Position numbers and translations under genes: made by a program. 42,520 nt of DNA from a bacterium (GTDB lineage: Bacteria > JAHJDO01): positions 1 through 42,520 of the forward strand of contig JAUWOV010000003.1 of NCBI GenBank assembly GCA_030611945.1, written 5' to 3'. The notes beneath the pieces were generated by a model, which saw only the letters and a program-made list of their open reading frames with translations, was not told where the DNA came from and did no database searches. Below are positions 3,238-36,510 of the stretch, piece by piece (the stretch's first letter is position 1; each line of letters starts with the position of its first letter).

Positions 3238-6193
<2,956 letters not shown>

Positions 6194-6430: not shown

Positions 6431-6625
6431 TCAGCTCTTGCCTGCCCTTTCCTTTAGTAATTCTCTTACCTTGCCCTCTGCCCCGCTTATACCCATCTCA
6501 TCAAGAATTAATTTTCTTAAAGGTCTAAATCTTTCTGGAGGAACAGATGCCTCTATATAAAGCAATATGCGATTTTTTGCCTCGTTATATACTTTGAAGA
6601 TTTTTTCCGGCAGATTATTCTCCAT
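6431..6625 (-). CDS. Small hypothetical protein
   Basis: 64-aa ORF in operon orientation. Confidence 0.4.
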   Translation of the reverse strand: MENNLPEKIFKVYNEAKNRILLYIEASVPPERFRPLRKLILDEMGISGAEGKVRELLKERAGKS

Positions 6626-7456: not shown

Positions 7457-7987
7457 TTACATCTCAGCTTTTTTAAATAATCGTATGACTTCCGGAGTGA
7501 ATATATATGGGTCTATTTCCTTTTCCTTAACACCGAGCCTTTTTGCTCTCTTAAACATAGCTTTTGCATCTCTGTCTAAATTTCCAGTGAGATATAAAAT
7601 TGAGCCTAAATAGAGACAAGCGTTTCCTGCTTCTATTCTTTTTAAATCCCCTGAAGTGATAGATTTTATTAAATAATCTTTTGAGCTTTTATAATCAAAA
7701 CCCCTGTATGCTGTTAGCCCTCTTTCCAGATAAACATGCCCATTAATTCTTGGAATGGTATTTGCATAATTTTTAACCTGTCTGGGCTTAGTTGATGGGC
7801 TTTCAACGGGTTTCATATTAACTACATCGTCCAGGATGTCAAAAACGGTTTCTGGTATAGTAAAAACAACTTCAGCAAAGTCATACAGTCCACGGGCAAA
7901 ATCACCTGAAGAGAATCTCGTATGAGCGCAGCCTGTGCTGCTGACAATAATCATGCTCAGCAGAATAATATTGATTTTTTTCTTCAT
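7457..7987 (-). CDS. Predicted lipoprotein with TPR-like helices
   Basis: MKKKINIILLSMIIVSSTGCAH lipobox; C-terminal helical repeat GNACLYLGSILYLTGNLDRDAKAMFKRAKRLG. Confidence 0.65.
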   Translation of the reverse strand: MKKKINIILLSMIIVSSTGCAHTRFSSGDFARGLYDFAEVVFTIPETVFDILDDVVNMKPVESPSTKPRQVKNYANTIPRINGHVYLERGLTAYRGFDYKSSKDYLIKSITSGDLKRIEAGNACLYLGSILYLTGNLDRDAKAMFKRAKRLGVKEKEIDPYIFTPEVIRLFKKAEM

Positions 7988-8000
7988 AATAATCTCACCA

Positions 8001-8570
8001 CTAATTTAGCTTTTTAATTTGGTATTTACCTGTTTCACAATTAGCCATGACTTGATATTTTGTTCCACCAGTAAAATCATAGACAATTTCTACTTTTCTT
8101 AGCTGTGGATTAATAGGAGCAACTACTATTCTTCGCTTACCTGGCCTGACTTTTATTATATCTCGGGCTGGAGTATTAATTTTTCTTCTGCCAATCTTGG
8201 TAGAGCCAGCAGGATAGCTTCTTAAAACAAGATAAGAATAACGTGAACTCATATTAGATACATTGTTTCTGGAGGGAACAGTTTCTGCAATAGACCTGAC
8301 TCCCTGGCGATGATGTTTTCTTGCTCGACTTTCCGCTGAACCATAGCACTTAAGCACCATCATTATTGCAAAAATTATGGCTACTACCTTAACTGGCACA
8401 GGAACATTTTCAAGCCCATTATATGCCGGTGCTGGCTGCCTATGAACATGGTAATGCGGTTGCTCATATTGTATATCTGCGTCCCTATAACCAGCATCAT
8501 GTCTTCTTGCGCCTCTAGGATTTACAGGAATTGGATCTGGTATGGCCATTATCACTCCTATCAACTCCAT
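8001..8570 (-). CDS. Single-TM protein with PEGA-like domain (likely true start at 8549)
   Basis: TM VPVKVVAIIFAIMMVLKCYG; PEGA-like SYLVLRSYPAGSTKIGRRKINTPARDIIKVRPGKRRIVV. Confidence 0.55.
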   Translation of the reverse strand: MELIGVIMAIPDPIPVNPRGARRHDAGYRDADIQYEQPHYHVHRQPAPAYNGLENVPVPVKVVAIIFAIMMVLKCYGSAESRARKHHRQGVRSIAETVPSRNNVSNMSSRYSYLVLRSYPAGSTKIGRRKINTPARDIIKVRPGKRRIVVAPINPQLRKVEIVYDFTGGTKYQVMANCETGKYQIKKLN

Positions 8571-9987
8571 CTATATCAGGAATTTTCTCTTTAATCTTAC
8601 TCATTAAAGGGGCCGCATTACCCAACCCTAAAAGACCATCTTGTGAGCAAATTGGGCACTCCATATTTTCATCAGATTGATCTATCTCCACAGCATCAAG
8701 TTTCCAATCTTTAAGCTCAGTATAAATTTTAACTGGCTGGCAACCAATGCTGGAACAAAATCTCATCATCATCCAGACAGCTAAAGAAGCTACATTCATA
8801 TTAAGAAAATATACTGCTGGCCGTGGTATATCAGCGCCATGAACATAGCCAGCTTGTGATAGAGCTTCTCTGCGTTTTTCCTGCAAAAGGTCTGTAACTG
8901 CATCCCAACTAGAAAATGAGCCCATACAACTTAAACAGTATTCAGCTCCCGGGATAATTTTGAAAATTTGTCCTGATATATATTCAGTTTTATTATTTTT
9001 AACCTGTATACCAGAGCCGCAGTCAAAATATGGAATTCCATGGGCTATAGCCAGTCTATTCATAATTAATCTTGGCCCAATTCTATCAACAGAACCAAAC
9101 AAAATATCTGCCTGTTTAACAGTTTCCTGGGCTTCAGGTTGGGATATATCAGACTGAATAGCTATGACATTAAGGTCAGGATTTACATTCCATAAATACC
9201 TTTTGAGGCAGTTGACCTTTGGAGTATGGTTAAGTGCGTCAAATCTCGTTGTCCCAGGCAATCTGTTCATATTTGAAAATTCAACAATATCAGGGTCAAC
9301 TATGATTAAAGTGGAGACCGGCAATCTAGCTAGCAGCTTACAAATAACAGCTCCCAATCCTCCGACACCAACCACGGCAACTGTTAGATTGTTATATATT
9401 TTCTGAGCTTTTTCCCCAAATGCCAGAATAGTCCTTGAATAAACATCTGCGTCAAAAGTAGTATTTTTAAGTGGAGAAGATGCCGGAATAATCATGTGCA
9501 TTTGTTCAGAGCTAAGCACCTTAATAATATCTACAGGCTGAACACCCTTGCAATTACTGGAGCAAATTCTGGCATCAAGTTTAGTAAAATCAGTGTTAGT
9601 TACAATACTAACAGCAGTTAATCCCTTAAATGTGCGCATGAGATAAGGGAATAATTTTTCTAGGTCATTCCCATCATCAATAAAACTGAAACAAGGAGAG
9701 ATGCTATTTACATGAGAATGGATCTTTATAAGATCTCTCTGTTCTGCAAGGCATTTAAGATAAATTTTTGTCATGAAATCTTTTGTTGGAGAGACAATAT
9801 ATGGGGAGCGTTTTCTGTAATCTTTTGGACCAGCTATCATAAGGTCTTTAACAATCAATCGATTATGATATGAGCTTGAGCTTCTTTCGGCAAATGCAAA
9901 AGCAAGGCTCTCTAAAGAAGATTCAGTTGAAAAAGCTTCCCGAAGTTTTTTGCATTCCTTTTCAAAAAATAAGATTTCTTTTTTCAT
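8515..9987 (-). CDS. JAMM(Mov34)-E1/ThiF fusion protein
   Basis: N-terminal JAMM-like HSHVNSISPCFSFIDD; E1 motifs VVGVGGLGAVICKLLARL, IVDPDIVEFSNMNRLPG, TPKVNCLKRYL, DILFGSVD…RLIMNRLAIAHGIPYFDCG; zinc pairs CLSC and CPIC. Confidence 0.85.
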   Translation of the reverse strand: MKKEILFFEKECKKLREAFSTESSLESLAFAFAERSSSSYHNRLIVKDLMIAGPKDYRKRSPYIVSPTKDFMTKIYLKCLAEQRDLIKIHSHVNSISPCFSFIDDGNDLEKLFPYLMRTFKGLTAVSIVTNTDFTKLDARICSSNCKGVQPVDIIKVLSSEQMHMIIPASSPLKNTTFDADVYSRTILAFGEKAQKIYNNLTVAVVGVGGLGAVICKLLARLPVSTLIIVDPDIVEFSNMNRLPGTTRFDALNHTPKVNCLKRYLWNVNPDLNVIAIQSDISQPEAQETVKQADILFGSVDRIGPRLIMNRLAIAHGIPYFDCGSGIQVKNNKTEYISGQIFKIIPGAEYCLSCMGSFSSWDAVTDLLQEKRREALSQAGYVHGADIPRPAVYFLNMNVASLAVWMMMRFCSSIGCQPVKIYTELKDWKLDAVEIDQSDENMECPICSQDGLLGLGNAAPLMSKIKEKIPDIDGVDRSDNGHTRSNSCKS

Positions 9988-9996
9988 TTTGTCACC

Positions 9997-10425
9997 TCAT
10001 TTTGCAAAACGATTCATTCGCTGGTAAATAATATCAATCACTGTTAGTAAATTATCTCCAGAAATTACGTCCCTTCTGGGGTTCCATGTCTTAATATGAA
10101 TAGAAAGGTAAGCATAATTCTTATCTTCAAGATCATTAACACCGTCAGATTCAAAATAGTGTTCAGGTGTTCTCCCTGATGTAGTTCTTAACCGTTTGTC
10201 CACATAAAAACCATATGGCGCGGTCTCAAATCCGCTATCCAGCCCGGGCATTCTTATTAAAAGGTTGGAATAGGAAGGACGCCACCCTTTTGGCAAATTA
10301 AAATCCTTGATAAAAACCCAGGTATAAGTACTCTTGTCATATTTAATAAACTTGTCAGAAAAAACTCTTTGGACAAGTTCAATATTCTCGTGATACCACT
10401 TTCTTATAATATTATACGTAGCCAT
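9997..10425 (-). CDS. E2/UBC-like protein (Prok-E2_E type)
   Basis: LPKGWRPSYSNLLIRMPGLDSGFETAPYGFYVD and YAYLSIHIKTWNPRRDVISGDNLLTVIDIIYQRM resemble Prok-E2_E; lies between Ubl-like and E1 genes. Confidence 0.7.
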   Translation of the reverse strand: MATYNIIRKWYHENIELVQRVFSDKFIKYDKSTYTWVFIKDFNLPKGWRPSYSNLLIRMPGLDSGFETAPYGFYVDKRLRTTSGRTPEHYFESDGVNDLEDKNYAYLSIHIKTWNPRRDVISGDNLLTVIDIIYQRMNRFAK

Positions 10426-10487
10426 TTTATGCCCTCCTTTAGAAAGGGAGAGAAGACATACTCTCTCCCTTCCTCTATAAATTGAAA

Positions 10488-10715
10488 TTATCTACCGTCT
10501 TCCACAACTGGCTGGGTTTCAAATCTTTCTCCTGGTTGGACTTGGATTCTCGCATTTTTGTAAATAAGTTTGTTAGTGCCGTCAGGATTTACCCGAACCA
10601 AATCTTTACCAGAACCCTGATTTATGGCGTTTAAGATTCCTCCCCCAGTTATTGTAGAAGGTACTGTGACTGAACGACCAGCAACATTGATGGTTCTTGT
10701 AACGTCTTTTCCCAT
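10488..10715 (-). CDS. Single-domain ubiquitin-like (beta-grasp) protein, C-terminus …VEDGR
   Basis: 75 aa; TRTINVAGRSVTVPSTITGGGILNAIN…VRVNPDGTNKLIYKNARIQVQPGERFETQP resembles the multi-ubiquitin domain pattern; adjacent E2 and E1. Confidence 0.7.
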   Translation of the reverse strand: MGKDVTRTINVAGRSVTVPSTITGGGILNAINQGSGKDLVRVNPDGTNKLIYKNARIQVQPGERFETQPVVEDGR

Positions 10716-10922: not shown

Positions 10923-11945
10923 TTAAACGATGCTGCCATCTTCTTTACTCTTCCCTTCTAAGCGATCTCTCCATTTAGAAGGCGATAAACTAATGGAATG
11001 TTTTCGCCAAGAACTCGCAATGCCGATGTCGTATCCATAAGTTACCGTTATCTTGATAATATCTTTATCTCTAAATTGTGGATATCCATTCAAAATAACC
11101 CTAGCAACCTGTTCTGCTTTTGTTTCAAGAACAACAGGTTCCTGTTTGTAGAAAACATTAGCGCTGATATAACTACTAATACCTTTTGGGGTAATAGCTT
11201 TGTCAACAATTACATAAGCGAATGACACATTCTCCATTTTATACAGATGTCTTTGAAGGTTTTGAGGAATAAAGGTCTCTGTGAACGCTTTTTTTGATAT
11301 CAATCTAGGAACTATATCTACACAAAATGCTAGAACACATATAAGAGTTATTGCAAGAAAACCCAGTGAGCGATCAATCGGATTAACTGTAATAGGATCC
11401 ACTGTATCTGTTTTCACAACATATGTCTTACAAACTACATCATGAAGAAATTGTCTAGTGCTACCGGAATAAAAACTGATAATAATTAAACCAATACCAA
11501 AAGCGAATAATTGAATAGCTGTTCTTATTAGTGTTATCAATGATGATGGTGGTAACATAATTCCGGTAAGAAAGAATGGCAGTGTTAATATAGTAGTGCG
11601 GAGTAATGAGGTTCTAAAGGGAATATACTCACCAGTATAGCCTACGACACAAATTTTGGTTATTTTTTTGCCAATGCTTTGACCTTTCCCAAAGCGACTG
11701 TTTAAAAGCCCAAAATAACCTAAACTAATTGCAAATCCGAACAAGCGTCCCCACCCACCTATCTGAGCCAACTGTTTACCAAACAAAAATCCAAGGAATA
11801 TTCCCACAACACCTAAAAATATCCCATCAAGAAATAAAGCTAATATACGCTTCCAAAACCCGCAAATTGGAGAATCTCTTTTCACTCTTTTAACTTTTAA
11901 AGGGGCACCCGATGCTATCTGGCTTAATTGAATATTATTTGTCAT
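10923..11945 (-). CDS. RDD family membrane protein
   Basis: FWKRILALFLDGIFLGVVGIFLGF…GQSIGKKITKICVVGYTGEYIPFRTSLLRT, several TM segments. Confidence 0.8.
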   Translation of the reverse strand: MTNNIQLSQIASGAPLKVKRVKRDSPICGFWKRILALFLDGIFLGVVGIFLGFLFGKQLAQIGGWGRLFGFAISLGYFGLLNSRFGKGQSIGKKITKICVVGYTGEYIPFRTSLLRTTILTLPFFLTGIMLPPSSLITLIRTAIQLFAFGIGLIIISFYSGSTRQFLHDVVCKTYVVKTDTVDPITVNPIDRSLGFLAITLICVLAFCVDIVPRLISKKAFTETFIPQNLQRHLYKMENVSFAYVIVDKAITPKGISSYISANVFYKQEPVVLETKAEQVARVILNGYPQFRDKDIIKITVTYGYDIGIASSWRKHSISLSPSKWRDRLEGKSKEDGSIV

Positions 11946-11947
11946 TG

Positions 11948-12784
11948 TTAAAATCCTTTCTTTTTATTATCTTCATAAACAAGGTTTTTATATTCATATA
12001 TTTCTTTGAAATCACATTGCATTACATGCCACAAAAGACAGATTGTGATTCTATGGTCAGGATTTTTATCAATATTATCTGAAAAGTTTTTCTGAACTAA
12101 TTTTAAAGATTTAGTATCAAGACATACAATTACAACCCGTTCATACCCTGCGAATAAATTTTTAATTGCCTGCATGTATTCAGTGTTCTCCGTAGAAAGC
12201 ATAACCTCAATTGAGACCTTTCTATTATTTTCAGGATCTATTACCTTAACATCCACCTTTTTGCCATTTATATCTCCCTCTACGGTTGTATTGAAGTTTC
12301 TGTCCTGAAGTCTTTTAGCTATTAAATTCTGAATAAAGCGATGCTGTAAGCTTCTTCCTCCTCTGCCAGAATCAGTAGCAGGTAGAAGCTGGGCTTTAAT
12401 GCGACCTTTTGCAGTTAGAAAGTAAAATTTGGTCTTTCTACCGCGAGCAGATAGCTGCAAATCAAGGTTTTTAGTAAATCCATCAGCTACGAGTTTTTCA
12501 AAGATAACAATACCACGATCCATGCTAAGAGTCTCAATCCCAGCCAGTGTAATTGATTTACATCTTTCAGCTACCCCAAAGAAAGGCCTTTGATTGAAAT
12601 CTTTTAGAACAGCTTTTTCTAAATCGCTTTCAACCTCAACTATTCTTGGAGCGCGAACACTCCACGCCTGCCTTGGCACAATTGGTGATAGTTTTTTAAG
12701 TATTTCTTTATTATTTTTTATCATTTCTTCTTTGCTAATTTTAGGCAATGGAAACAAGTTAACTTTCAATTGGATATCCCCCAA
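11948..12784 (-). CDS. wHTH protein with restriction-endonuclease-like C-terminal domain (Replic_Relax-like partner of the ATPase)
   Basis: C-terminal HRFIQNLIAKRL…KKVDVKVIDPENNRKVSIEVMLS…RVVIVCLD; overlaps the ATPase gene. Confidence 0.5.
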   Translation of the reverse strand: MGDIQLKVNLFPLPKISKEEMIKNNKEILKKLSPIVPRQAWSVRAPRIVEVESDLEKAVLKDFNQRPFFGVAERCKSITLAGIETLSMDRGIVIFEKLVADGFTKNLDLQLSARGRKTKFYFLTAKGRIKAQLLPATDSGRGGRSLQHRFIQNLIAKRLQDRNFNTTVEGDINGKKVDVKVIDPENNRKVSIEVMLSTENTEYMQAIKNLFAGYERVVIVCLDTKSLKLVQKNFSDNIDKNPDHRITICLLWHVMQCDFKEIYEYKNLVYEDNKKKGF

Positions 12785-14126
12785 CTTTCATTAAAAACGG
12801 CTTCGTATATCTGTCTGCGAGCTTTGTAACACACACGAATTGAGGTAGATGTGCTAAGCTAATAGTTTGTTCTGATGTTAAAAACATCGATTGTTTAACA
12901 GCCCAGATATCCTCAGTATTAAATAAGTGAAATGCAAAATATGAAAAAACGTTTGACTGGTATGAATTTGCAAGAGCAGATGGGTTTGTTGTTCCTACCA
13001 TGCATCCGATGCCTGAAAAACGGACCTGGCTCTGCAATTCAAGAATTGGTTTAGTTGCCTTGTCATTTGTAAATATATGTCCGCCTTCATCAAAAACAAA
13101 TACTTGTCTTAGTTCATCAATATAATTAAAAGCATCGCTTTGAAGGTCTGTATATGCCTGATTTAAAGATTGCGTTTCTATTAATAACTCATGTTTATTT
13201 GATACAGAAAAAGTTTCAATTATAAGGCTTATGCCTTTTCGGGCTAATTCTCCTGGTATAATTCCTTTGCAGCAATCAAATGAAACAGCCAAGGGAGACT
13301 CTAGAATTCCATTTGAGATAGAAAGTTGCGAACTCTTTAAATCCTTTCGTATTGATAATCCTGGAGGCATTTTCATAAACTGAAGTTCTTTATTGATTTC
13401 ATATTCCGAAAAATAGATATCCTTTTTTGGATCACACAATGACAAAAGGTTGTTTATAGCTTGATTGAACAAAATCTGTGAATCATGCCTTTCAAAAATC
13501 CTTGCTCTATAGTCAGACCTGCGTGATAGATATGCCATTCTGTTGCAGTTTTTTGGCCATCCATTAAAATTTAAAAATTTATCAATCCCAATTTTCATAA
13601 TTAGAACCCTGTCTGGAAACAGCTTTTGTAATCCAGAGAACTGGCCGCCTTTACGGTCAAATATAACTACAGAAATGGATTTTTGAATCAGTTTTTCTAA
13701 TATAGAGATCAGAAGGCTTGTCTTGCCACATCCTGTAATCCCTGCAACGCAAAAATGTTTTGTGAACTCTGAAAGCTTGAGCATTACAGGAATATTGCCC
13801 TCAAGAGTTCTGCCAACTTCAATATCGCCCTCAGAGATTCCGCTATTTGCGTCAGGTTCAGGCCTATAAGGCTTTCTGTAATCATATTCATTTTTATTCT
13901 CTTTTCGCTTATCAAGAAAATAATTTACCCTGGCTTTACAATTAATATAAATATTTCTGTCTACTCCTGGAAAATTCGGATTTTTCAAAATTAATGCCAT
14001 TCTGCGGATGCCATCATCCTTGTGCTCAAGCCCTTCCTCTTCAATTTGTTTTAGCAAGTTATCTCTCATTTTCGGAGTGATAGTTATTTCGTTTCTGTTA
14101 TAGAGCGCCATTTTCGTAATCCTCAT
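12759..14126 (-). CDS. HerA/FtsK/TraD-like DNA-translocase ATPase (DUF87-like)
   Basis: Walker A AGITGCGKTSLL, VVIFDRKGGQF, Walker B-like RQVFVFDEGGHIF, sensor-like GTTNPSA. Confidence 0.8.
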   Translation of the reverse strand: MRITKMALYNRNEITITPKMRDNLLKQIEEEGLEHKDDGIRRMALILKNPNFPGVDRNIYINCKARVNYFLDKRKENKNEYDYRKPYRPEPDANSGISEGDIEVGRTLEGNIPVMLKLSEFTKHFCVAGITGCGKTSLLISILEKLIQKSISVVIFDRKGGQFSGLQKLFPDRVLIMKIGIDKFLNFNGWPKNCNRMAYLSRRSDYRARIFERHDSQILFNQAINNLLSLCDPKKDIYFSEYEINKELQFMKMPPGLSIRKDLKSSQLSISNGILESPLAVSFDCCKGIIPGELARKGISLIIETFSVSNKHELLIETQSLNQAYTDLQSDAFNYIDELRQVFVFDEGGHIFTNDKATKPILELQSQVRFSGIGCMVGTTNPSALANSYQSNVFSYFAFHLFNTEDIWAVKQSMFLTSEQTISLAHLPQFVCVTKLADRYTKPFLMKVGGYPIES

Positions 14127-14676
14127 TATGTTGGTTAAAATCGTTAACTTCCTGTGTATTATGTCCCAGTGGAGACGCTAACATATTAAATGCCCAGCAG
14201 AATGGTGCAGTAAGAACTCGTTTAGAAAGCTCAATAAGCCAACAATGACGGCAATACCGCACTTTTTCATGTACTTGAGACGATTGAGTTGTGCCATTTC
14301 TAAGAGTTTTCTCAACCGTTCTAATTCTTCCAGTTTCCTCTTCATATCCCAAATGACCTATATAATAGAGGTGCTTGCACCGCGAACACTGGAATCCATC
14401 TTTTAAACGATTAATTTGTTTGTCCATGTGACAGAAAAAAATCTTTTCACCGGCTTCTAGCTCGACACCAGACTCTGTAATAGTTGAATCTATAGTCTGA
14501 TAATTCTCTATACCATTATCTGAGTTGGCTTTTTTTGAAATATCTTCTCGGCGGTAAGTCACGCCTGAGTCTAAATCAAAGCCTTTTATTCTTTTTTCTC
14601 TAATGTTTGAGCTAATAATGTCTTCAGAATTAGACATATTTGTTGACCGAGTCATTTTTATTCTCCTCCTCTCCAT
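14098..14676 (-). CDS. Zinc-binding treble-clef/RING-like protein
   Basis: FFCHMDKQINRLKDGFQCSRCKHLYYIGHLG…VRYCRHCWL cysteine/histidine spacing. Confidence 0.5.
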   Translation of the reverse strand: MERRRIKMTRSTNMSNSEDIISSNIREKRIKGFDLDSGVTYRREDISKKANSDNGIENYQTIDSTITESGVELEAGEKIFFCHMDKQINRLKDGFQCSRCKHLYYIGHLGYEEETGRIRTVEKTLRNGTTQSSQVHEKVRYCRHCWLIELSKRVLTAPFCWAFNMLASPLGHNTQEVNDFNQHNEDYENGAL

Positions 14677-20448: not shown

Positions 20449-21939
20449 ATGGATAACAATATTAAGTCATTATTAGATGAGTTGTCTTATGGTTCTGTCC
20501 AGAAGATTATAGATCAATATCCAAGCAGTTTAAAAGAAGCTACTTCTTTTAAAAAGTATATTATAGCGACCTGTTGTCTGATTGAAGATTTAAGAAAGCA
20601 TGAAGATGTAAAGATAGCTATTGAGAGTGCAAAAAGACAAGTAGGATATAAGTATTTCTTAAGCCAATATTACATAGATAATTATCTTAATAGTATCTTA
20701 AATAAAGAAAGTTATACTGTTTTTGATAATCTATATGTAGAGCCTAGTGTTGAGAAAATAAAAGATAAACAAACGGCAGAAAGGGCTCCTCTCCCTTATG
20801 AATTTAATGGAACTACTCTTCAAGATTTTCCGACTAATAGTCCTAAGCAAAATTCCAAGCCAAAAGAAAAAGAAGTTCCAATTATTACTGCAATAGAAAA
20901 CAATCCTAATTTAGTAATTGTTGGTGAACAGGGTGCTGGCAAAACATCCACTTTAAAGCATTTATGTGTATATTTTGCAAAAAACGCTAAAAATAAAGCA
21001 AAGATAATTCCTGTATTTGTTGCTCTTGATGCTTATGGTATCAATCATTCAAAGCTTGAATATGTTATCCGTGATTCCATAGACCCTTCTATAGATATCT
21101 CTCTATCGGATTTATTAAAAAATTATAAGTGTATTATTTTCCTTGATGGTTACAATGAAATTCCTAAAAAATATAGAGGTACAGCTTTAAACCAGATTCA
21201 GAACTTTTTCAAAGGTAAAACATATAACTGTGTTTTGACTTCCAGACGTGAAGGTTACCACGGGGAAATTGATTCTAAAACTATGGAGGTTGAACCTTTT
21301 GGCTATGAAAAAATAAAAGAGTTGACAAAGAAATATCTAAAGCATTTTAAGGGCAAAAAAACTGTCGATGGTATGTTAGATACGTTAGAATCAAACTCAA
21401 AACTGATGGACTTGGCTAAAAATCCATTTTATCTTGTAATTATGGTTCTTATATACAATGAAAAAGGGACAATTCCTCCACAATTAGGTTTAATTTTTGA
21501 ACATCTTATGACTGTTATATATGAGGGAGATAACAATTGGGAAGATAAAAAAAATAAAAACAAATTCCAAAAAATAAAGACAGAAATTCTTGCTGATTTG
21601 GCTTATAAAATAATTGAGCAAGGCAATGTAGCTATAAGTATTTATGATTGCGAAGATATTATGGGTAAGAAAAGGGCTGACTTGATTAGCAAAGGGAAAT
21701 TTTTACAGGACGAAGGCACAGTTTATGACATTCTTTCAGAATTAAAGGATAATAACTTATTAGATGAAATTAGTGGTATAGTGAAGTTTGTGCATCAAAG
21801 TTATGGTTCGTATTTTGCTGCTTGTTATCTTAAGAGAATGTCTCCAGAAAAGTTATTACGTAAAATTCGAGATGAACTATTAGAATACATGAGATGGGAT
21901 GAAACAATCTCGCTATTACTAGGTATAGTAGATGTCTAA
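20449..21939 (+). CDS. NACHT-family STAND NTPase
   Basis: VIVGEQGAGKTSTLKHL Walker A; CIIFLDGYNEIP Walker B; NCVLTSRREGY sensor; NPFYLVIMVLIY…LPPQLG-like NACHT helices. Confidence 0.85.
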   Translation: MDNNIKSLLDELSYGSVQKIIDQYPSSLKEATSFKKYIIATCCLIEDLRKHEDVKIAIESAKRQVGYKYFLSQYYIDNYLNSILNKESYTVFDNLYVEPSVEKIKDKQTAERAPLPYEFNGTTLQDFPTNSPKQNSKPKEKEVPIITAIENNPNLVIVGEQGAGKTSTLKHLCVYFAKNAKNKAKIIPVFVALDAYGINHSKLEYVIRDSIDPSIDISLSDLLKNYKCIIFLDGYNEIPKKYRGTALNQIQNFFKGKTYNCVLTSRREGYHGEIDSKTMEVEPFGYEKIKELTKKYLKHFKGKKTVDGMLDTLESNSKLMDLAKNPFYLVIMVLIYNEKGTIPPQLGLIFEHLMTVIYEGDNNWEDKKNKNKFQKIKTEILADLAYKIIEQGNVAISIYDCEDIMGKKRADLISKGKFLQDEGTVYDILSELKDNNLLDEISGIVKFVHQSYGSYFAACYLKRMSPEKLLRKIRDELLEYMRWDETISLLLGIVDV

Positions 21940-23635
21940 TACTTTAGATAAAATTATAAATCTTCTTATTGACTTAGATCCATTTTTTGCTGCCCAATGT
22001 TTTCCAATGGCAAAAAACGCAACTTCTGAAACAGAAGACAAGTTAATAAAAATATTATCAGATAAAGCTAAAGATGACACTTATTTAGGATTAAGTGCTA
22101 TCTATAGTTTAGGTATAATAAAATCAGAAAAAGCTGTAGAACCCCTTCTTGCATTGTTAGAGAATGGCGGCGACCTTTGGTATGTGGTACATGCGTTAAG
22201 TGCAATAAAATCAGAAAGAGCTGTAGAAGCGCTTCTTGCGCTACTAGAGAAAACAAAAGATAATAACTTTGGGTGGATTGCACATGCGTTAGGTGCAACA
22301 GAATCAGAAAGAGCTGTAGAAGCACTTCTTGCATTGTTAGAGAAAAGTAAAGATAATGATATTATCGAGAGTATAGCAGATGCGTTAGGTGCAACGAAAT
22401 CAGAGAAGGCAGTAGAGCCTCTTCTTGTATTGTTAAAGAAAAGTAAAGATAATGATGTTATTGAGAAGATAGCAGAGGCATTAGCTGAGATAAAATCAGA
22501 GAAGGCAGTAGAGCCTCTTCTTGCGCTACTAGAGAAAAGTAAAAATAATAGTGTTCTTTGGTATGTGGTATGTGTATTAGGTGAAATAAAATCAGAAAAA
22601 ACTATAAAACCTCTTCTTGTGCTGTTAGAGAAAAGCAAAGATAATAGTGTCCTTTGGTATGTGGCAAGTGTATTAGCATGTGTGTTAGGTATAACAAAAT
22701 CAGAAAAGGTAGTGGAGCCTCTTCTTGCATTATTAGAGAAAAGTAAAAATAATAGTGTTCTCAGCAGTATAGCACGTGTATTAGGTGAAATAAAATCAGA
22801 AAAGGCAGTAGAACCTCTTCTTGCACTACTAGAGAAAACTAAAGATGATAGTGTTCTTATAAGTATAGCACGTGCATTAGGTGAGATAAGATCAGAGAAG
22901 GCAGTAGTCCCTCTTTTTGCACTCCTACAGAAAACTAAAGATGATAGTGTTATTGAATATGCAATATATGCATTAGGTGAGATGAAATCAGAGAAGGCAG
23001 TAGAGCCGCTTCTTGCATTGTTAGAGAAAAGCAAAAATAATAATATTCTCAGGCGTATAGCAGATGCACTAGGTGAAATAAAATCAGAAAAAGCAGTAGA
23101 ACCTCTTCTTGCGCTGCTAGAGAAAACTAAAAATGATAGTGTTCGTTGGGGTGTGGAACGTGCATTAGGTGGAATAAAATCAGAAAAGGCAGTAGAACCT
23201 CTTCTTGCATTGTTAGAGAAAAGTAAAGATGATAATGTTATTAAGAGTATAGGAGATGCATTAGGTGGAATAAAATCAGAAAAAGCAGTAGAACCTCTTC
23301 TTGCATTGTTAGAGAAAAGTAAAAATAATAATGTTCTCAGCAGTATAGCACGTGCATTAGGTGGAATAAAATCAGAAAAGGCAGTAGAACCTCTTCTTAC
23401 GCTACTAGAGAAAACTAAAGATGATAATGTTATTAGTGGTACAGCATATGCTTTGCGTGAAATATCTTCTGTATGTTCAGAAACAAGGAATAAAAAGACA
23501 ATAATTTCTTTGGTTAAGATGCGTAAAACATTTAATAGAGAAAATTTGAAGAACGATATTTATGTATCTGTTGAAGATTTAAAAAAGAACTCACGTAGAA
23601 GATTTTTAAATAAGTTAAAAGGATTTTATGAATGA
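21932..23635 (+). CDS. HEAT (PBS-lyase-like) repeat protein, about 14 repeats
   Basis: Repeats of IKSEKAVEPLLALLEKSKDNxVLxxIAxALGE, mostly 32 aa; start overlaps NACHT stop (ATGTCTAA). Confidence 0.9.
   Translation: MSNTLDKIINLLIDLDPFFAAQCFPMAKNATSETEDKLIKILSDKAKDDTYLGLSAIYSLGIIKSEKAVEPLLALLENGGDLWYVVHALSAIKSERAVEALLALLEKTKDNNFGWIAHALGATESERAVEALLALLEKSKDNDIIESIADALGATKSEKAVEPLLVLLKKSKDNDVIEKIAEALAEIKSEKAVEPLLALLEKSKNNSVLWYVVCVLGEIKSEKTIKPLLVLLEKSKDNSVLWYVASVLACVLGITKSEKVVEPLLALLEKSKNNSVLSSIARVLGEIKSEKAVEPLLALLEKTKDDSVLISIARALGEIRSEKAVVPLFALLQKTKDDSVIEYAIYALGEMKSEKAVEPLLALLEKSKNNNILRRIADALGEIKSEKAVEPLLALLEKTKNDSVRWGVERALGGIKSEKAVEPLLALLEKSKDDNVIKSIGDALGGIKSEKAVEPLLALLEKSKNNNVLSSIARALGGIKSEKAVEPLLTLLEKTKDDNVISGTAYALREISSVCSETRNKKTIISLVKMRKTFNRENLKNDIYVSVEDLKKNSRRRFLNKLKGFYE
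22118..23461 (+). repeat. Tandem ~96-bp repeat array encoding HEAT repeats
   Basis: 14 successive units; many contain near-identical aaatcagaaaaggcagtagaacctcttcttgcattgttagagaaaa. Confidence 0.9.
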
Positions 23636-28330: not shown

Positions 28331-29566
28331 ATGGTAACCAAATATGATGTTTTTCTATATCTGGCTGATAAAGGCACTGCAATAAAAACGCCAGAGGTTA
28401 TGAAGAACTTTAAAAGAATAAAGCATGAATATCAGAATATCTATCACATACTTTCTGGTTTAGTGAAAGAGGATTTAGCTACAAGGTCAGGAAAAGGATT
28501 TCAGGTAAAGCTATCACTAAAATCCCGGCTGTTGCACAGGCTGATAACATACTGCATTAATAATGGCATAAATTATAATCATTTAATTGATGTAAACCTT
28601 GCAGATTTTGTTGCAAAGGCATTGTTAAAAACAGAGTTCACTTTAAAGGATTTTAAAATTAACCCAAAGACATTTAAAAAATATACAGAGATACTAAAAA
28701 GATACGGCTTAATTATTATAATTTCAACCAAGCCATTTAAGGCAAGGATTACATGGAACCACCTTTTAAGCAATATTCTCCAGTACTTTGACATGCCTGT
28801 TTTTGTAAGAAAGGAAAACAAGATTGACTTTTTGGACAGGATTGAAAAGGAATTAAAAATATTCAACAGAAAAATAAAACAGAACGAAACAGCCTATAAT
28901 GCTTTAACCGAGGATTTTGAAACTAGGTTTATTCATTCAAACCTTTCGATAGAAGGGAATCCTGTGACCTTGCCAAATACAATTAAAATTTTAAAGGATA
29001 AAATCATGCCAAAAGATCTCAGGGATTCTGATATCAAAGAGATACAAAATTACCAGATTGCTCTGAGAGCAATGATGAAGGATTCCAGAAGCGGAAATGC
29101 CTTAAATAAGGGAAAAATTCTCAATTACCATTTTCTGGCAATGCAGCATAATGAAGAAATTGCGGGAAAGCTCAGAAAAATCAGTGTGCGTATAAAAGGC
29201 AATCCTAACTTTAAAGTAGCTCCTGTAGATAAAATTGGATTCTGTTTTGACCAGCTTATGAAAAGATATGATATTTTTACAGCAAAGAGGCATACCATTA
29301 AAGAGATAATTGATTTTGCCTCTTATTTCCATAACCAGTTTCAGTATATTCATCCATTTGCTGATGGAAACAGCAGAGTAGCCCGCTTAATAACTTTTCA
29401 TCTTCTTCAGTACTTTAAAATACCCATTCTTGACATCCCTCTCGGCATACTAGATCAATATCTAACCAATACTAAAAGCTATATAAAGCGTGATGATAGG
29501 GATTTAAGCAAAACATTGCAGCTAATTATTCTTTACAATCTGAAAATTATTAATGATAAGCTGTAA
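28331..29566 (+). CDS. Fic-family protein (predicted AMPylase)
   Basis: HPFADGNSRVARL Fic motif; NLSIEGNPVTLPNT; N-terminal winged-helix-like region. Confidence 0.88.
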   Translation: MVTKYDVFLYLADKGTAIKTPEVMKNFKRIKHEYQNIYHILSGLVKEDLATRSGKGFQVKLSLKSRLLHRLITYCINNGINYNHLIDVNLADFVAKALLKTEFTLKDFKINPKTFKKYTEILKRYGLIIIISTKPFKARITWNHLLSNILQYFDMPVFVRKENKIDFLDRIEKELKIFNRKIKQNETAYNALTEDFETRFIHSNLSIEGNPVTLPNTIKILKDKIMPKDLRDSDIKEIQNYQIALRAMMKDSRSGNALNKGKILNYHFLAMQHNEEIAGKLRKISVRIKGNPNFKVAPVDKIGFCFDQLMKRYDIFTAKRHTIKEIIDFASYFHNQFQYIHPFADGNSRVARLITFHLLQYFKIPILDIPLGILDQYLTNTKSYIKRDDRDLSKTLQLIILYNLKIINDKL

Positions 29567-29668
29567 TATTTTTTAAGAGATACTGATAGCAATAAAGCCA
29601 TAAAAACTCTGATTCTAAAAAAACAAATTTTTTCTTATTGCATAGAGAAAAAAATTTCTTAAAACGAG

Positions 29669-30532
29669 GTGGTAAAACTGAAACAAGAACTAAATATGGC
29701 TGAGTTAAAAAATAAAGCTCTGAATTTTGATAAGGCAGAGACGAGAGATGTGCATGTTATTAAGGATGAAAACAACTATCTCTGCAAAAGGACAATGGCT
29801 GTATGGAACATTAGCAAGAATGTATTAGCGTGCCTTGCTCCAAAAAATTATGCAGTTATTCAGCATAAGCATGCAACAGAATCTATTATAGGAGCAATAA
29901 CCAGCCTAAATATCAAGGCAGCAGCAAAACTAAAAACATCAAAGCACGGCATACATATTGACTTTGATTTCCCGGAGTCTAAGTTTGAGTTAAAAACTGT
30001 GGGGGAATCATACACAACAGGTATACGCATTGTAAGCGATTATTCAAAAGTAGCTGGCCTTGTAATCAGCCCAAGGGTAACCAGACTGGCATGCTCAAAT
30101 GGAATGATAGTTACAGACATAGTGAAATCCCAGAGAATAAAATATACAGAACAGCTGACAATAACAGTAGAAGGTCTAATTGACAAGATGGTAAAGGATA
30201 TAATCACAAATGATGAGAAACTAGCCAATATGGTAAGTATTTGTATGGAAGACAGCACAGAATGGAACGCTGTAAAGTTATTGTTAAAAATGATGTTTAA
30301 AAAGAAGAAATATGCCAAAGAGATTTTTAATAACTTAGATATCAGTAAAAAAAGAGTTACCAGGTGGGATCTTTATAATGCAGTAACTAATTTTGCGACA
30401 CACGGGGAAAGATTAAAACCGCATATGGAAGCATGGCTGCAAAATAAGGCAAATGAGATAATGAAGACTTCTTTTAACGAGCTGTCGGAAATCAACAAGC
30501 CTGTGAAAAAGACTGTTGCTCAGACAGCCTGA
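29669..30532 (+). CDS. DUF932-like plasmid/phage protein (likely start ATG 29696)
   Basis: NYAVIQHKH, TRLACSNGMIV, RVTRWDLYNAVTNFATHGE. Confidence 0.6.
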   Translation: MVKLKQELNMAELKNKALNFDKAETRDVHVIKDENNYLCKRTMAVWNISKNVLACLAPKNYAVIQHKHATESIIGAITSLNIKAAAKLKTSKHGIHIDFDFPESKFELKTVGESYTTGIRIVSDYSKVAGLVISPRVTRLACSNGMIVTDIVKSQRIKYTEQLTITVEGLIDKMVKDIITNDEKLANMVSICMEDSTEWNAVKLLLKMMFKKKKYAKEIFNNLDISKKRVTRWDLYNAVTNFATHGERLKPHMEAWLQNKANEIMKTSFNELSEINKPVKKTVAQTA

Positions 30533-30552
30533 TTTTTTATTTTTTCCTTAAA

Positions 30553-31242
30553 ATGGTAACAGATATTACAACTCCTGGTTGTCAAACACAGCTTTTTGAT
30601 TTTGAGAAGCACTATGTTACCCCATCAAAATCCCTGCCCTCTTCTTTTCAGATAAAAGTTGAACCAAAGCATGATATGGCAAAAAGCCAAAGTTGTGTAA
30701 AGGAACTGGCAAAATACCTAAGGAAAGTTAACTATAGCTTTACAAGATTTCTTGATATTTCCTTAGCAGCAATTGAAGGCAAGGAAGAAGATTATATGAA
30801 ATTAATAAATGGCTTAGAAAAAGATGAATTACATGATTACACAAAGGCATTGGGAGTTTTAATGGGGTTTTTCATGGAAGGATATTATGATGATATTTTA
30901 GGGATGTATTATCCTTCTTATGAAGGAAAACTCGGCAATGGTTATTTTTCAACGCCCTTTCATATTTCTTGTTGCATGGCAGAAATTTCAGATATCAAAC
31001 CGACAGATACTCTCAATGATCCATGTTGCGGAAGCGGAAGTTTCCTGCTTGCAGCTAAGTTTGTGATTCACAAAAAATATGGATGGAAAGAAAGCTGTTA
31101 TTATATTTCAAAGATGACTGCAATTGATATCGGAGCAACACAGGTTAAGATGTGCAAATTGCAGCTTTTACTTTCAAATTACTTATACATGATATCACGC
31201 GCTTATGATGTTGTTATGAAAGCTAAATCTTTGGTTAAATAG
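30553..31242 (+). CDS. N-6 DNA methylase-like protein lacking an obvious NPPY motif
   Basis: GNGYFSTPFHISCCMAE, motif I TLNDPCCGSGSFLLAA, AIDIGATQVKMCKLQLLLSN. Confidence 0.7.
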   Translation: MVTDITTPGCQTQLFDFEKHYVTPSKSLPSSFQIKVEPKHDMAKSQSCVKELAKYLRKVNYSFTRFLDISLAAIEGKEEDYMKLINGLEKDELHDYTKALGVLMGFFMEGYYDDILGMYYPSYEGKLGNGYFSTPFHISCCMAEISDIKPTDTLNDPCCGSGSFLLAAKFVIHKKYGWKESCYYISKMTAIDIGATQVKMCKLQLLLSNYLYMISRAYDVVMKAKSLVK

Positions 31243-31666: not shown

Positions 31667-33535
31667 ATGGACAATATAGACAAGCAGATTGAAACGCTTA
31701 AAGTTCTAAACAAGGTAGACAATCTGAATTTAACTGATGAGCATTACGGCATATTAAAAGAAAAGGCAGTAAAATTCTACAATGATTACAAAGAGACTGG
31801 CGTGAACATAACAATTAATGTTTCACTGGATAATAAGCATGTATTCAGGATTTCCATATATGATAAAAAATCCATTTCAATAAGATATAACCGGCAACAA
31901 GAGGGATGCTCAGAAGAAATATATTCTATAAGGAATGTTGACTTGCTGTTTAAGCCAACACCCATGGAATTAAAGCATATTTCAAATCTTAGTTCTGATA
32001 TAACTTACCGGGATAAAAAAACATATAAAAATACAGTTCATTTTGTAAACAGCAGGCTAAAACATATAGTGGAATTAAGAGTAGACGAAAATCAAATCGA
32101 TTCTCTGTTCTGGCTGTTTAGAGAGGAAAAAGCAGATATAATAAAAATAGATGACGAAAGCAGATTGAATGTAATTACGCACGTGTTTGAAAAGAAGAAT
32201 AAGAGGTATTATCTTGCTAAAGACTATTCTTACTATAAAGTGCATGTAATAACCCCTGAAGATGAAAAATACAATTACATAGATAAAGGCAGGTTGTTTC
32301 ATCGTGACATTTTCTTTGAAGGCATGGAGCTTTACGAAATAGAGGATGATGTTCTAACTAAAATAATAAATGAAACCAATAATTTTGCAATTATAACCCC
32401 TCAAAGATACAGTACATATAAAGCAATGGTTGAAGAGGAGAAAAGGCAGAAGGAAATAAACGAGCATTATGTTGATGCCATAAAAAACCGATTAGACCAG
32501 GGGTTTGAACAGGATGGAATAAAGTTTAGAAAACACTCAATAGAGTATGCCGGATTAAGGATTGAAAGCGAAGCTCTGGATATAGAGGAATTAGTAAACA
32601 GCATAAACTTTGACCAGAATCTTGACTTTAATAATATCTTCAATCAAGTATGTTCAATAATAACTGATAGATTATTCCCCGACAAATATAAAAACATGGT
32701 TATTCACCTTGGCTCTTTTCCTGTAAGGCTGGATGTTGAAACAAAAAGAAACGGGAAATCAGTTCAAAGACTAATCAATAATGCTGAACAAAAACAGGTT
32801 AAAACAACAATAACCAATAAATATCTTGTTGACAACATAAGAATAAACAAGTCAGAGATAAAGGAAGTCATCAGGAGAGCGATCTGCTTCAGAAAAAGGT
32901 ATGATTATGATGTTTTTCTTAAGTCAGTCAGCACTATGTCTATAAAGCTGCATTACTTTCTCGCCAATGGTGTAAAGATATCTTACACTAAAAATGATAA
33001 ACTTTTAACAATGAAATTGAATCTTGTTAGAAGAGACAATAAAAATTATGTTGCTGTAAAAGATAAATTCCACAAGGTTAAGAACAGCAACCAGCTGTTT
33101 GCAGCAAGTTGTGATCCATTATATTCAAGAGGCTACAGGAATCATAACTTCCAGGCTCTTGTAAAAATGCTTATAGATTTTTTTGAAATCAAGGCAGATG
33201 ATGTCATAACCATGATGGAAGAGAGCTTAAAGGCCTACAAAGAGGCAGAAGAAAGGGCAAAGAAATTGCTAAATGAAACTATGAAGAAACTGGATATCAA
33301 AGAGGTTACAATTAAAGATAAAGAAGGATTTAAAATAAAGGGGAAATCCGGCAAAGAGTATTTTGTGGAGAGAAAAACAAATGGTGTTTACGAGCTTCCT
33401 GCCATGAAATATATCTGTATCGTGGAAACCAGCATGGACAACAATTTCAAGTCAGATAAGCTGGTAACATATTTCTATGCTTTAAAAAATGATTCCTATC
33501 TGGCAAGCGATATCTACACTCTGAATGTCAATTAA
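31667..33535 (+). CDS. Large hypothetical protein (622 aa) upstream of second Ubl cassette
   Basis: Long ORF with SD; no family recognised. Confidence 0.7.
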   Translation: MDNIDKQIETLKVLNKVDNLNLTDEHYGILKEKAVKFYNDYKETGVNITINVSLDNKHVFRISIYDKKSISIRYNRQQEGCSEEIYSIRNVDLLFKPTPMELKHISNLSSDITYRDKKTYKNTVHFVNSRLKHIVELRVDENQIDSLFWLFREEKADIIKIDDESRLNVITHVFEKKNKRYYLAKDYSYYKVHVITPEDEKYNYIDKGRLFHRDIFFEGMELYEIEDDVLTKIINETNNFAIITPQRYSTYKAMVEEEKRQKEINEHYVDAIKNRLDQGFEQDGIKFRKHSIEYAGLRIESEALDIEELVNSINFDQNLDFNNIFNQVCSIITDRLFPDKYKNMVIHLGSFPVRLDVETKRNGKSVQRLINNAEQKQVKTTITNKYLVDNIRINKSEIKEVIRRAICFRKRYDYDVFLKSVSTMSIKLHYFLANGVKISYTKNDKLLTMKLNLVRRDNKNYVAVKDKFHKVKNSNQLFAASCDPLYSRGYRNHNFQALVKMLIDFFEIKADDVITMMEESLKAYKEAEERAKKLLNETMKKLDIKEVTIKDKEGFKIKGKSGKEYFVERKTNGVYELPAMKYICIVETSMDNNFKSDKLVTYFYALKNDSYLASDIYTLNVN

Positions 33536-33593: not shown

Positions 33594-33806
33594 ATGGTAA
33601 AATTTAGAATTTTAGATGACAAAGGCGATACTGTGTTGGAACTGCAACCAGAGGAAACAATGGAAAAGATGAGGCAGGAGGCAGAAAGAGGCAGATGGCT
33701 CTATCTTAACGGCGAGGTTGTGAATATAGACCACGTTACTATGGAAGACATTAATAAAGCAAATGAAATAGTTTCAACACCAATGCTGAAAGGGGGTTCT
33801 TTATAG
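33594..33806 (+). CDS. 70-aa ubiquitin-like protein ending …MLKGGSL
   Basis: MVKFRILDDKGDTVLELQPEETMEKMRQEAERGRWLYLNGEVVNIDHVTMEDINKANEIVSTPMLKGGSL; GAGGTG SD; directly followed by JAMM and E1 genes. Confidence 0.65.
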   Translation: MVKFRILDDKGDTVLELQPEETMEKMRQEAERGRWLYLNGEVVNIDHVTMEDINKANEIVSTPMLKGGSL

Positions 33807-33819
33807 AACCCTTTTAAAA

Positions 33820-34185
33820 ATGATAAATATCCTGAAAGAGATAGAAAGGATTTCAGAAACAAGCGATAAGGAAGTGTGCGGAATAGTAACAGAGGAAGAC
33901 GGCAGAGCAAAGGTAACAGAGTTGAAGAATGTTTCAGACAACGAAGAGATTTGCTTTATAGCTGACCAAAGGCAGTTTTTTGATGCAATAAAAAAAACCT
34001 CTTTTTATGATAAAAGCAGGAGAAGCAATATAGTGTGTTTTTTCCATTCTCATATTCATAAGAATGAAACGCCTTCCGCAACTGACATGAAATACAGGTT
34101 GAAAAATATTCTTCATATCATATACAGCCTGACAACAAAAAGATTCTTTTTGCTGTATCCAGAAGGTGGTAGAAATGCTGAATAA
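33820..34185 (+). CDS. Stand-alone JAMM/Prok-JAB metalloprotease
   Basis: EVCGIV … FHSHIHKNETPSATDM: complete E…HxH-x7-S-x2-D motif. Confidence 0.85.
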   Translation: MINILKEIERISETSDKEVCGIVTEEDGRAKVTELKNVSDNEEICFIADQRQFFDAIKKTSFYDKSRRSNIVCFFHSHIHKNETPSATDMKYRLKNILHIIYSLTTKRFFLLYPEGGRNAE

Positions 34186-34423
34186 TTCAGTTACAACCAA
34201 AATCAAGGACAAAGGCAATGATGCTTCTAATATTTCCATTTATTTAAACAATAATGCAGCTTATCCTAACATTGAGATAGAGATTGAAAGGAGAAAGGTA
34301 TTTGAAACACTCGCTAATAAAGATTTAATTGTTGCTTCCTTAAACAAAAAATTAACTGAAATGATTCAGATGTATTTGGAAGCTCAGGCAAAAAAAGAAA
34401 AAGAGGTGCGGGAAAATGTATAA
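34175..34423 (+). CDS. Small helical protein between JAMM and E1
   Basis: ATG 34175 with AAGGTGG SD (track start at 34166 is GTG); overlaps both neighbours. Confidence 0.6.
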   Translation: MLNNSVTTKIKDKGNDASNISIYLNNNAAYPNIEIEIERRKVFETLANKDLIVASLNKKLTEMIQMYLEAQAKKEKEVRENV

Positions 34424-35015
34424 GAAAATTCTGATTTTAGGAGCAGGAGGCATTGGCTCTATGTTTAGTTCAAGGATATATGATTTAGTTATTAAAAGAC
34501 AGATAAACATTAATGACAGCGAGTTTTTTATTGCTGATAATGATAATGTAAAGCTGGAGAATATACAAAATAACCAGAAATTTGACAAAGAGGATTTGAT
34601 GATGAATAAGGCAGAAGCAATAGCGAAAAAGCACGGCTTTGTTGCTATAAAAAAGAAAATAGAAACAGAGGAAGAGTTAAAAGATTATGATGTCTTTGTA
34701 ATCTGCGTTGATAATAAAAAGGCAAGAGAGCTTATTTTCAATTACTGCAATAAAAATCCTGATAAATATTTTATTGATCTGCGTGCTGAAGGCAGGGGAG
34801 TAGCTGCATTTACAACATGCAAAGAAAACACTATAGAAAAATTATTAAAAACATTGCCGGATGATGATGAAAGCGGCTCTTGCCAAAGAAAGGCTGATAA
34901 AGAGCAAGGCATTTTCCAGTTAGGCAGCGTTATTATTGCAGAGATAGGCGCTCAACTCTTGCTTAATAATTTAAGAGAAGAAATAAACCCGCCAAAATTT
35001 ATCCAGATGTTTTAA
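34416..35015 (+). CDS. E1-like/ThiF family adenylating enzyme (PRTRC-ThiF-like)
   Basis: KILILGAGGIGSMFSSRI, FFIADNDNVKLENIQNNQKF, VFVICVDNKKARELI, DLRAEGR, GSCQ candidate catalytic Cys. Confidence 0.82.
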   Translation: MYKKILILGAGGIGSMFSSRIYDLVIKRQININDSEFFIADNDNVKLENIQNNQKFDKEDLMMNKAEAIAKKHGFVAIKKKIETEEELKDYDVFVICVDNKKARELIFNYCNKNPDKYFIDLRAEGRGVAAFTTCKENTIEKLLKTLPDDDESGSCQRKADKEQGIFQLGSVIIAEIGAQLLLNNLREEINPPKFIQMF

Positions 35016-35411: not shown

Positions 35412-36510
35412 TTACCTACTACAATATCGGTCTTTTTTAAAACGAATTTCTTTGATTAATTTTTCTAATTCTTTATTTCTATTGTTGATATTACGCATAT
35501 CTAAAGCTTTTCTATCTTTTAAACGTAAAGGAAGTATTTTTTTCATATTTCCTTCAATAACAATAGGAATTATTCTATCTTTATCTTTAGAAGATAAATT
35601 TGAAAGAGCTTGTTCAACTTCTTGTCTTACCCAATCTGACTTTCTTATATTATTTGAAACAATAACTAAAGTTAACAGACTATTTTTAATAGCTTTTATA
35701 ATTGAGGATTCTAGTATTTCACCCAAATGAAGGTCATTAACATCCAACCAACAATCAATTCCTGCTTTTAAAAGACCATCTCTCATCCAAGTTGCTATGT
35801 AATTATCTTTTGATGAATGACTTATAAATACATCATATTTATATTTAGACGAAAATAAATTGTTTTGCTTTGAATTAAAAAGTACAATCTCACTATTTCC
35901 ATAGTCATTGTCTTTAAATGATCTATTAAAAATAACTTCTGCAATTCTTAAATCTGCTTTATTATTTTTAAACTCATTAACAGCTTCATAACCCTTAAAT
36001 CCACAAATTTGGTCATTATCAGTTTTTAACTCAAAAGAAATTTCTTCTTTTTCATATTTTATTTGAAAAACATAGAAATAATATGTAATTCCTTTAACAA
36101 TGTTTTTTACAACACCTATAAAATTAATTGATGAGGGTTTTTATACCGCATTTAACTTCATCGTAATAATATTGTAGAATATCTTCGAAATTGTGAGGGT
36201 AAATTTTTCTATTTGGCACATAAAATGGCGAAAGAGATTGTAATATACTAAACCCTTTTGTAATTAAATGTGTATCCTTTCTTTCAATTAGAAGAACATC
36301 ATTATTTTTATTAGTTATAACAAAGCTAAATTGAATAATGTCTAGATTTCTTTTTTCTTTATCGCTTAATCTCTTACAATCTGTTGACTTAAATAGTTGA
36401 GATAGTGAAATAATTTTTTCTCTTTCGAAAAATTGAGCTATCTTTTTAGAAAATAATCGATTGTTGATTTTATGAATATATCTTTTGGGATCTGCTATTG
36501 ATTTTCTCAT
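35412..36510 (-). pseudogene. Nudix-like/TIR-domain protein split by a frameshift
   Basis: ORF 36124-36510 and an ATG-less open frame 35412-36140 join at an A5 run; downstream frame reads …KYKYDVFISHSSKDNYIATWMRDGLLKAGIDCWLDVNDL…SNNIRKSDWVRQEVEQAL (TIR). Confidence 0.7.

Follow-up and report, generated by a model that had tools for sequence, protein, structure and literature searches.

A divergent Bub-type ubiquitin-like operon beside a HerA–nuclease module in a bacterial serine-recombinase element

The trio among bacterial ubiquitin-like systems

The bacterial Bil system (BilABCD) has an E2 with a catalytic cysteine and a separate DUB. The Bub system, known from the Citrobacter structures 9ea4, 9ea5, 9ea8, 9eae and 9eav, consists of a JAMM–E1 fusion, an E2-fold partner and a beta-grasp ubiquitin-like protein (Ubl), and operons of the canonical Bub kind have the gene order Ubl–E2–JAMM-E1. 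Operon type 6e of Iyer (2006) comprises an N-terminal JAB–E1 fusion, one to three Ubl repeats of 70–75 aa and a Cys-less RWD/E2-like protein; a C-x3-C-x35-38-H-x2-C Zn-finger protein is ‘also seen’ in this type and is not strictly defining (PMC1779556). The purpose of the Bub pathway is unsettled, and the locus described here offers a concrete alternative, in which such a pathway controls the DNA machinery of the mobile element that carries it.

The window analysed, 42,520 nucleotides long, is an entire contig (C15); the draft genome of the uncultured bacterium from which it comes (G000) measures 1.66 Mb, and its phylum is represented in our comparison set by only five genomes, all of one genus. 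The trio and the gene that follows it are:

10488–10715, minus strand: Ubl, 75 aa, one beta-grasp domain (BubA-like)
9997–10425, minus strand: E2/UBC-fold protein, 142 aa, BubB-like, PF14462, no cysteines
8515–9987, minus strand: JAMM–E1 fusion, 490 aa, BubCD-like
8001–8549, minus strand: protein with one transmembrane segment (one-TM protein), no Pfam match, likely start ATG at 8549

As the first-pass annotation had it, the Ubl, E2 and JAMM–E1 genes are consecutive and co-directional; each ORF is preceded by a clear ribosome-binding site (GAGGTGAG, AAAGGAGG and TGAGGTGA), with 62 nt separating the Ubl and E2 genes and 9 nt separating the E2 and JAMM–E1 genes. When profiles were built with the window left out, JAMM–E1 scored 3e-97, E2 1.1e-16 and Ubl 1.2e-3, each ranking first among the 170 ORFs of the window. 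The range 8001–10715 does contain these three genes, but the one-TM gene lies inside it as well, its start overlapping the 3′ end of the E1 gene by about 35 nt. Because the likely start codon falls within the end of the E1 gene, this fourth gene is probably translationally coupled to it. A PEGA-like character had been suggested among the neighbours; a Pfam search of the one-TM protein found no PEGA match.

Because all three proteins match solved Bub components, the trio can be assigned with high confidence to the core of a Bub-type Ubl pathway. Within that class it is a divergent Bub core of Iyer operon type 6e. With type 6e it shares the JAB–E1 fusion, a Ubl of one to three domains and a Cys-less E2-like protein; the 6e Zn-finger protein, apparently the same as the DUF6527 protein, is missing. 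Unlike the Bub operons, the trio is strongly diverged, has a single Ubl domain instead of tandem repeats and is set in the operon of a HerA/recombinase element; no DUF6527 or C-x3-C...H-x2-C protein was found beside it, and none of the usual defence-type Bub regulators lies directly upstream.

The comparison with canonical Bub operons covered plasmid relatives and 80 genome loci, with DUF6527 counted across every locus. The usual order in these relatives is multiubiquitin, E2, JAMM–E1 and DUF6527, often with XRE/ImmA-type regulators first. DUF6527 is present in most fused JAMM–E1 loci with enough flank and in three of seven further loci (a second small sample with short flanks); it is absent from the window, from L002/L125, from a Natrinema plasmid (L021) and from L027. 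The trio indicates that some members can do without DUF6527 and tandem Ubl repeats, which narrows the core chemistry. The nearest E2s, at 29–32% identity, belong to unfused Ubl–E2–JAB–E1 clusters of Omnitrophota, Nitrospinota and Planctomycetota. Such clusters (L055, L052, L047 and L037) resemble the window in having a similar Ubl and no DUF6527, whereas their JAMM and E1 are separate genes, and no HerA–nuclease module or related recombinase was found nearby.

The initial description of a compact operon of the Iyer/Burroughs/Aravind kind, placed within an element operon, holds; its references to Bil and type II CBASS give way to the Bub/6e kind. Bil was rejected on an E2 without cysteine and a JAMM fused to the E1. 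Type II CBASS (Iyer 6b) has an E2–E1 fusion together with a pol-beta-type nucleotidyltransferase, whereas in the window the E2 has a gene of its own, and none of the trio's neighbours was recognised as a nucleotidyltransferase. PRTRC was rejected too, the E1 scoring 15 bits against TIGR03736 (PRTRC_ThiF), for which the cut-off is 144.75.

Folds and catalytic residues of the three proteins

The JAMM–E1 fusion matches PF00899 (6.6e-35) and, among PDB sequences, Citrobacter BubCD (3e-25, residues 42–461), with eukaryotic E1s, ThiF and MoeB far behind. In a 13-sequence family alignment, E26, H90, H92 and D104 of the JAMM are invariant and S101 nearly so, and the zinc-binding Asp aligns with the residue that is changed in the D104A entries deposited for BubCD. 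G207, G210, G212, D231, R242, K257 and D301 are likewise invariant, and the GVGGLG motif is kept. These residues bear out both the N-terminal JAMM and the intact-looking adenylation site that had been read from the sequence at the outset. None of the E1 cysteines is invariant; the sole nearly invariant one, C444, is part of a CPxC pair resembling one half of a zinc site, the putative Zn cysteines being C351, C354, C444 and C447. Identity to relatives is 23–27%. A scan with the single protein found no close relatives in viral contigs or genome contigs, and a profile scan, which gave the 80 genome loci, was required to find them. In an E1 tree the window protein has a long branch and an uncertain position, and we draw no phylogenetic conclusion from it.

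The E2-like protein exceeds the cut-off of PF14462 (Prok-E2_E, 2e-6), and the only significant PDB match of its AlphaFold2 model (pLDDT 91, from a small input alignment) is BubB in the BubCD–BubB complex (9eae_C, 3.4e-5), which agrees with the UBC fold first proposed for it. Column counts for the family reveal no conserved cysteine, and a protein that, like this one, has no cysteine at all cannot form a thioester. W114 is invariant in the family, S108 and H110 are nearly invariant and D124 is conserved, all four being present in the window protein; measured relative to the Trp, the conserved Ser sits near the usual position of the E2 Cys. Ser108/His110 would be an attractive substitute nucleophile, but the E2 of the related locus L125 has neither residue; consequently they are not required in all members, and this candidate was rejected.

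By sequence, the Ubl has no match in Pfam, PF14452 (Multi_ubiq type) included. Its AlphaFold2 model (pLDDT 85, again from a small input alignment) has beta-grasp topology, and in a Foldseek search of the PDB the best eight matches are all bacterial multi-ubiquitin domain proteins, headed by 9d5a, 9d59, 8u38 and 9cd2 with a TM of about 0.75. The beta-grasp-like fold suggested for 10488–10715 is thus upheld by prediction; the evidence from sequence alone is modest, and fold and context carry the assignment. The family-invariant Gly is residue 74 of 75, with Arg75 as the one residue after it. Several relatives have one to a few residues past this Gly, in tails as variable as EDGR, FGGGV, FGHGTY, SPGVR and TEGGA; many others stop at the Gly. 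Since the invariant Gly carries short variable tails in several members, trimming of the Ubl by the JAMM is suggested.

The resemblance of the E1 domain to ThiF/MoeB allows speculation that the E1/Ubl pair performs sulfur transfer or small-molecule adenylation, with no protein conjugation. This is very improbable in view of the fused JAMM with its intact active site, the adjacent E2-fold partner, and best structural matches that are Bub proteins, not ThiS/MoaD.

The integrative element and its relatives

The neighbours of the trio, from the left end of the element, are:

4322–4341, minus strand: left junction; from about here the sequence is that of miaB, uninterrupted in the sibling G001
4323–6011, minus strand: large serine recombinase, at the left end of the element
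7457–7987, minus strand: putative lipoprotein with a lipobox-like SSTGC and a weak TPR match (0.1)
10923–11945, minus strand: membrane protein of the RDD family, lying between the Ubl and the HerA/nuclease module
11948–12784, minus strand: nuclease-like protein, wHTH and PD-(D/E)XK-like by inspection
12759–14126, minus strand: HerA/TraD-like ATPase
14098–14676, minus strand: putative Zn protein rich in Cys and His, placed like the Cys-rich proteins beside HerA in L125 and L126

The recombinase gene of the window directly adjoins miaB, the first codons of which are replaced. In the sibling G001 an rRNA-methylase-like gene stands directly before miaB and the site is empty; in the sibling species G002 a remnant of the same recombinase type (L184, 13947–14519) abuts miaB at the same site. 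Occupation in G000 and, by a remnant, in G002, against the empty site in G001, speaks for site-specific insertion, by recombinases of this type, at the 5′ end of miaB; judged from these junctions, the site is re-used among siblings. Neither a second copy of the miaB junction nor the right end of the element was found within the window.

A sister element lies on an 18.8 kb contig (L125) of G041, an unrelated genome of another, candidate phylum with two genomes in the comparison set. On one strand, and in the order seen in the window, its genes encode a Zn-type protein rich in Cys, a HerA ATPase whose fused C-terminus is nuclease-like, a pair of one-TM proteins, Ubl, E2, JAMM–E1, two small proteins and a serine recombinase. 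HerA and nuclease are two genes in the window and one fused gene in L125, the window nuclease-like protein being homologous to the C-terminal part of the L125 HerA protein. Between the two elements the recombinases match at 27% (2e-40), HerA and nuclease at 5e-6 and 3e-13, and the JAMM–E1 proteins at 26% (2e-21). Conservation of the trio elsewhere, on which the first-pass annotation had staked its reading, is therefore found; because the genes recur in the same order, their chance association is excluded, and the trio of Ubl, Cys-free E2-like protein and JAMM–E1 is real. A Cdc6/Orc-like ATPase (9e-109) is encoded both in the sister element (L125, 16197–17297) and in an unfused Ubl–E2–JAB–E1 cluster of Planctomycetota (L037, 8874–10004).

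The RDD, one-TM and putative lipoprotein genes do flank the trio, as stated when a membrane-linked version of the system was first suggested, and membrane genes also lie between HerA and Ubl in L125. A Ubl system that modifies envelope proteins (RDD, one-TM protein, lipoprotein) would account for this. However, the trio is soluble, with no TM segment, and neither the RDD nor the one-TM gene has a homologue in the sister element. Modification of envelope proteins is, consequently, improbable.

A search of 382 genomes with the HerA–nuclease proteins gave matches in 13. In two of these, G228 (L153) and G136 (L154), the HerA–nuclease gene adjoins JAMM and E1 genes that are of another type, as well as a related serine recombinase; this JAMM type occurs only in these two of the 382 genomes. 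An ORF at 6621–7379 of L153 was considered as a Ubl–E2 fusion and gained no support from hhalign. Of the roughly nine fused Bub-type JAMM–E1 loci in the 382 genomes, two (those of the window and G041) have a HerA–nuclease gene within 10 kb. Rough arithmetic, with some 20 HerA–nuclease loci in roughly 1.2 Gb (taking about 3 Mb as the mean genome size), gives a chance expectation of about 0.003 such pairs; as the window itself was ascertained, one independent case is left, in addition to the two pairs of the other type. The exact arrangement of trio and HerA–nuclease has two examples in these data.

No Ubl operon was detected in the examined flanks of the HerA–nuclease relatives in G267, G297, G277, G281, contig C77 of G000 or the same-genus G002. 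The partnership is thus recurrent and not obligatory. Contig C77 (L147) carries two more HerA-family ATPase genes and could represent a second element. Viral contigs and plasmids yielded no useful HerA relatives.

Because the same order recurs in G041, and other JAMM/E1 pairs stand beside the module in two genomes, the trio looks like part of the backbone of an integrative-element family, not random defence cargo. The main rival is that it is a Bub anti-phage or stress cassette carried as cargo, which tags phage or host proteins and sits by chance in a defence-rich element. Bub operons have indeed been placed among immune pathways and have regulators in common with immune operons, although protection against phage by Bub is as yet undemonstrated (PMC13373217). 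Most of them adjoin XRE/ImmA-type regulators in plasmids and islands, as defence genes do, and the window element has TIR, NACHT-like and HEAT genes. Yet the trio has no such regulator types directly upstream, and its neighbours are element genes whose order is kept in a second, unrelated host. We consider a cargo cassette rather unlikely.

Possible role of the operon and other genes of the window

In the mechanism that we propose, the JAMM would mature the Ubl by cutting off Arg75, and the E1 domain would adenylate the exposed Gly74. The E2-fold protein may then act as E1 partner and substrate platform, with a transfer chemistry that we infer to proceed without a cysteine thioester, and the JAMM would later take the Ubl off its targets. 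The operon could be a working part of the integrative element, placed as it is between the HerA-like ATPase/nuclease module and the serine recombinase. The position of the trio next to a DNA-translocation module in unrelated hosts names candidate substrates: the likeliest would be proteins of the DNA-processing module of the element, with attachment of the Ubl and its removal by the JAMM as the switch.

In Sulfolobales, too, a Ubl gene neighbours the gene of a HerA-like ATPase, and this ATPase has been proposed as a possible Ubl target; that neighbourhood is on an archaeal chromosome, its Ubl is URM1-like, and no such E2/JAMM–E1 operon is described there (PMC2948915). By analogy it may serve as a useful parallel; it is not evidence.

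The reading as a whole, non-thioester Bub-type conjugation with JAMM maturation and removal that serves the element's own DNA-processing module, seems to us evenly balanced. The role of the trio in element control, taken by itself, we put forward tentatively. More speculatively, Ubl operons of at least two JAMM/E1 types might be a conserved backbone partner of HerA and nuclease in serine-recombinase elements of several phyla, regulating DNA processing or transfer of the element and not host defence. Some mobile elements may use Ubl tagging to steer their own DNA handling.

The window also holds a second, separate Ubl-pathway-like gene set (33594–35015, plus strand). It encodes a 70-aa protein ending in KGGSL, a Prok-JAB JAMM (33820–34185; PF14464, 9e-9), an 85-aa protein and a short ThiF E1 (34416–35015; PF00899, 3e-13) that stays below the PRTRC ThiF cut-off. 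The ORF at 33594–33806 was considered as a homologous second Ubl, and the comparison gave no support. Directly upstream of this JAMM/ThiF set lies a gene for a 622-aa protein (31667–33535, plus strand), for which there was no Pfam match and no relative in viral contigs. A NACHT-like ATPase gene followed by a gene for a HEAT-repeat protein of near-identical units (20449–23635, plus strand) is a possible defence pair, and a short TIR-domain ORF (35412–35786, minus strand; PF13676, 9e-19) is perhaps a truncated gene. Genes for a Fic-domain protein, a DUF932 protein and a short N6 DNA methylase stand in a row (28331–31242, plus strand), a plasmid-like content, and transposase-like ORFs lie near both contig ends (512–1870 and 41087–42410).
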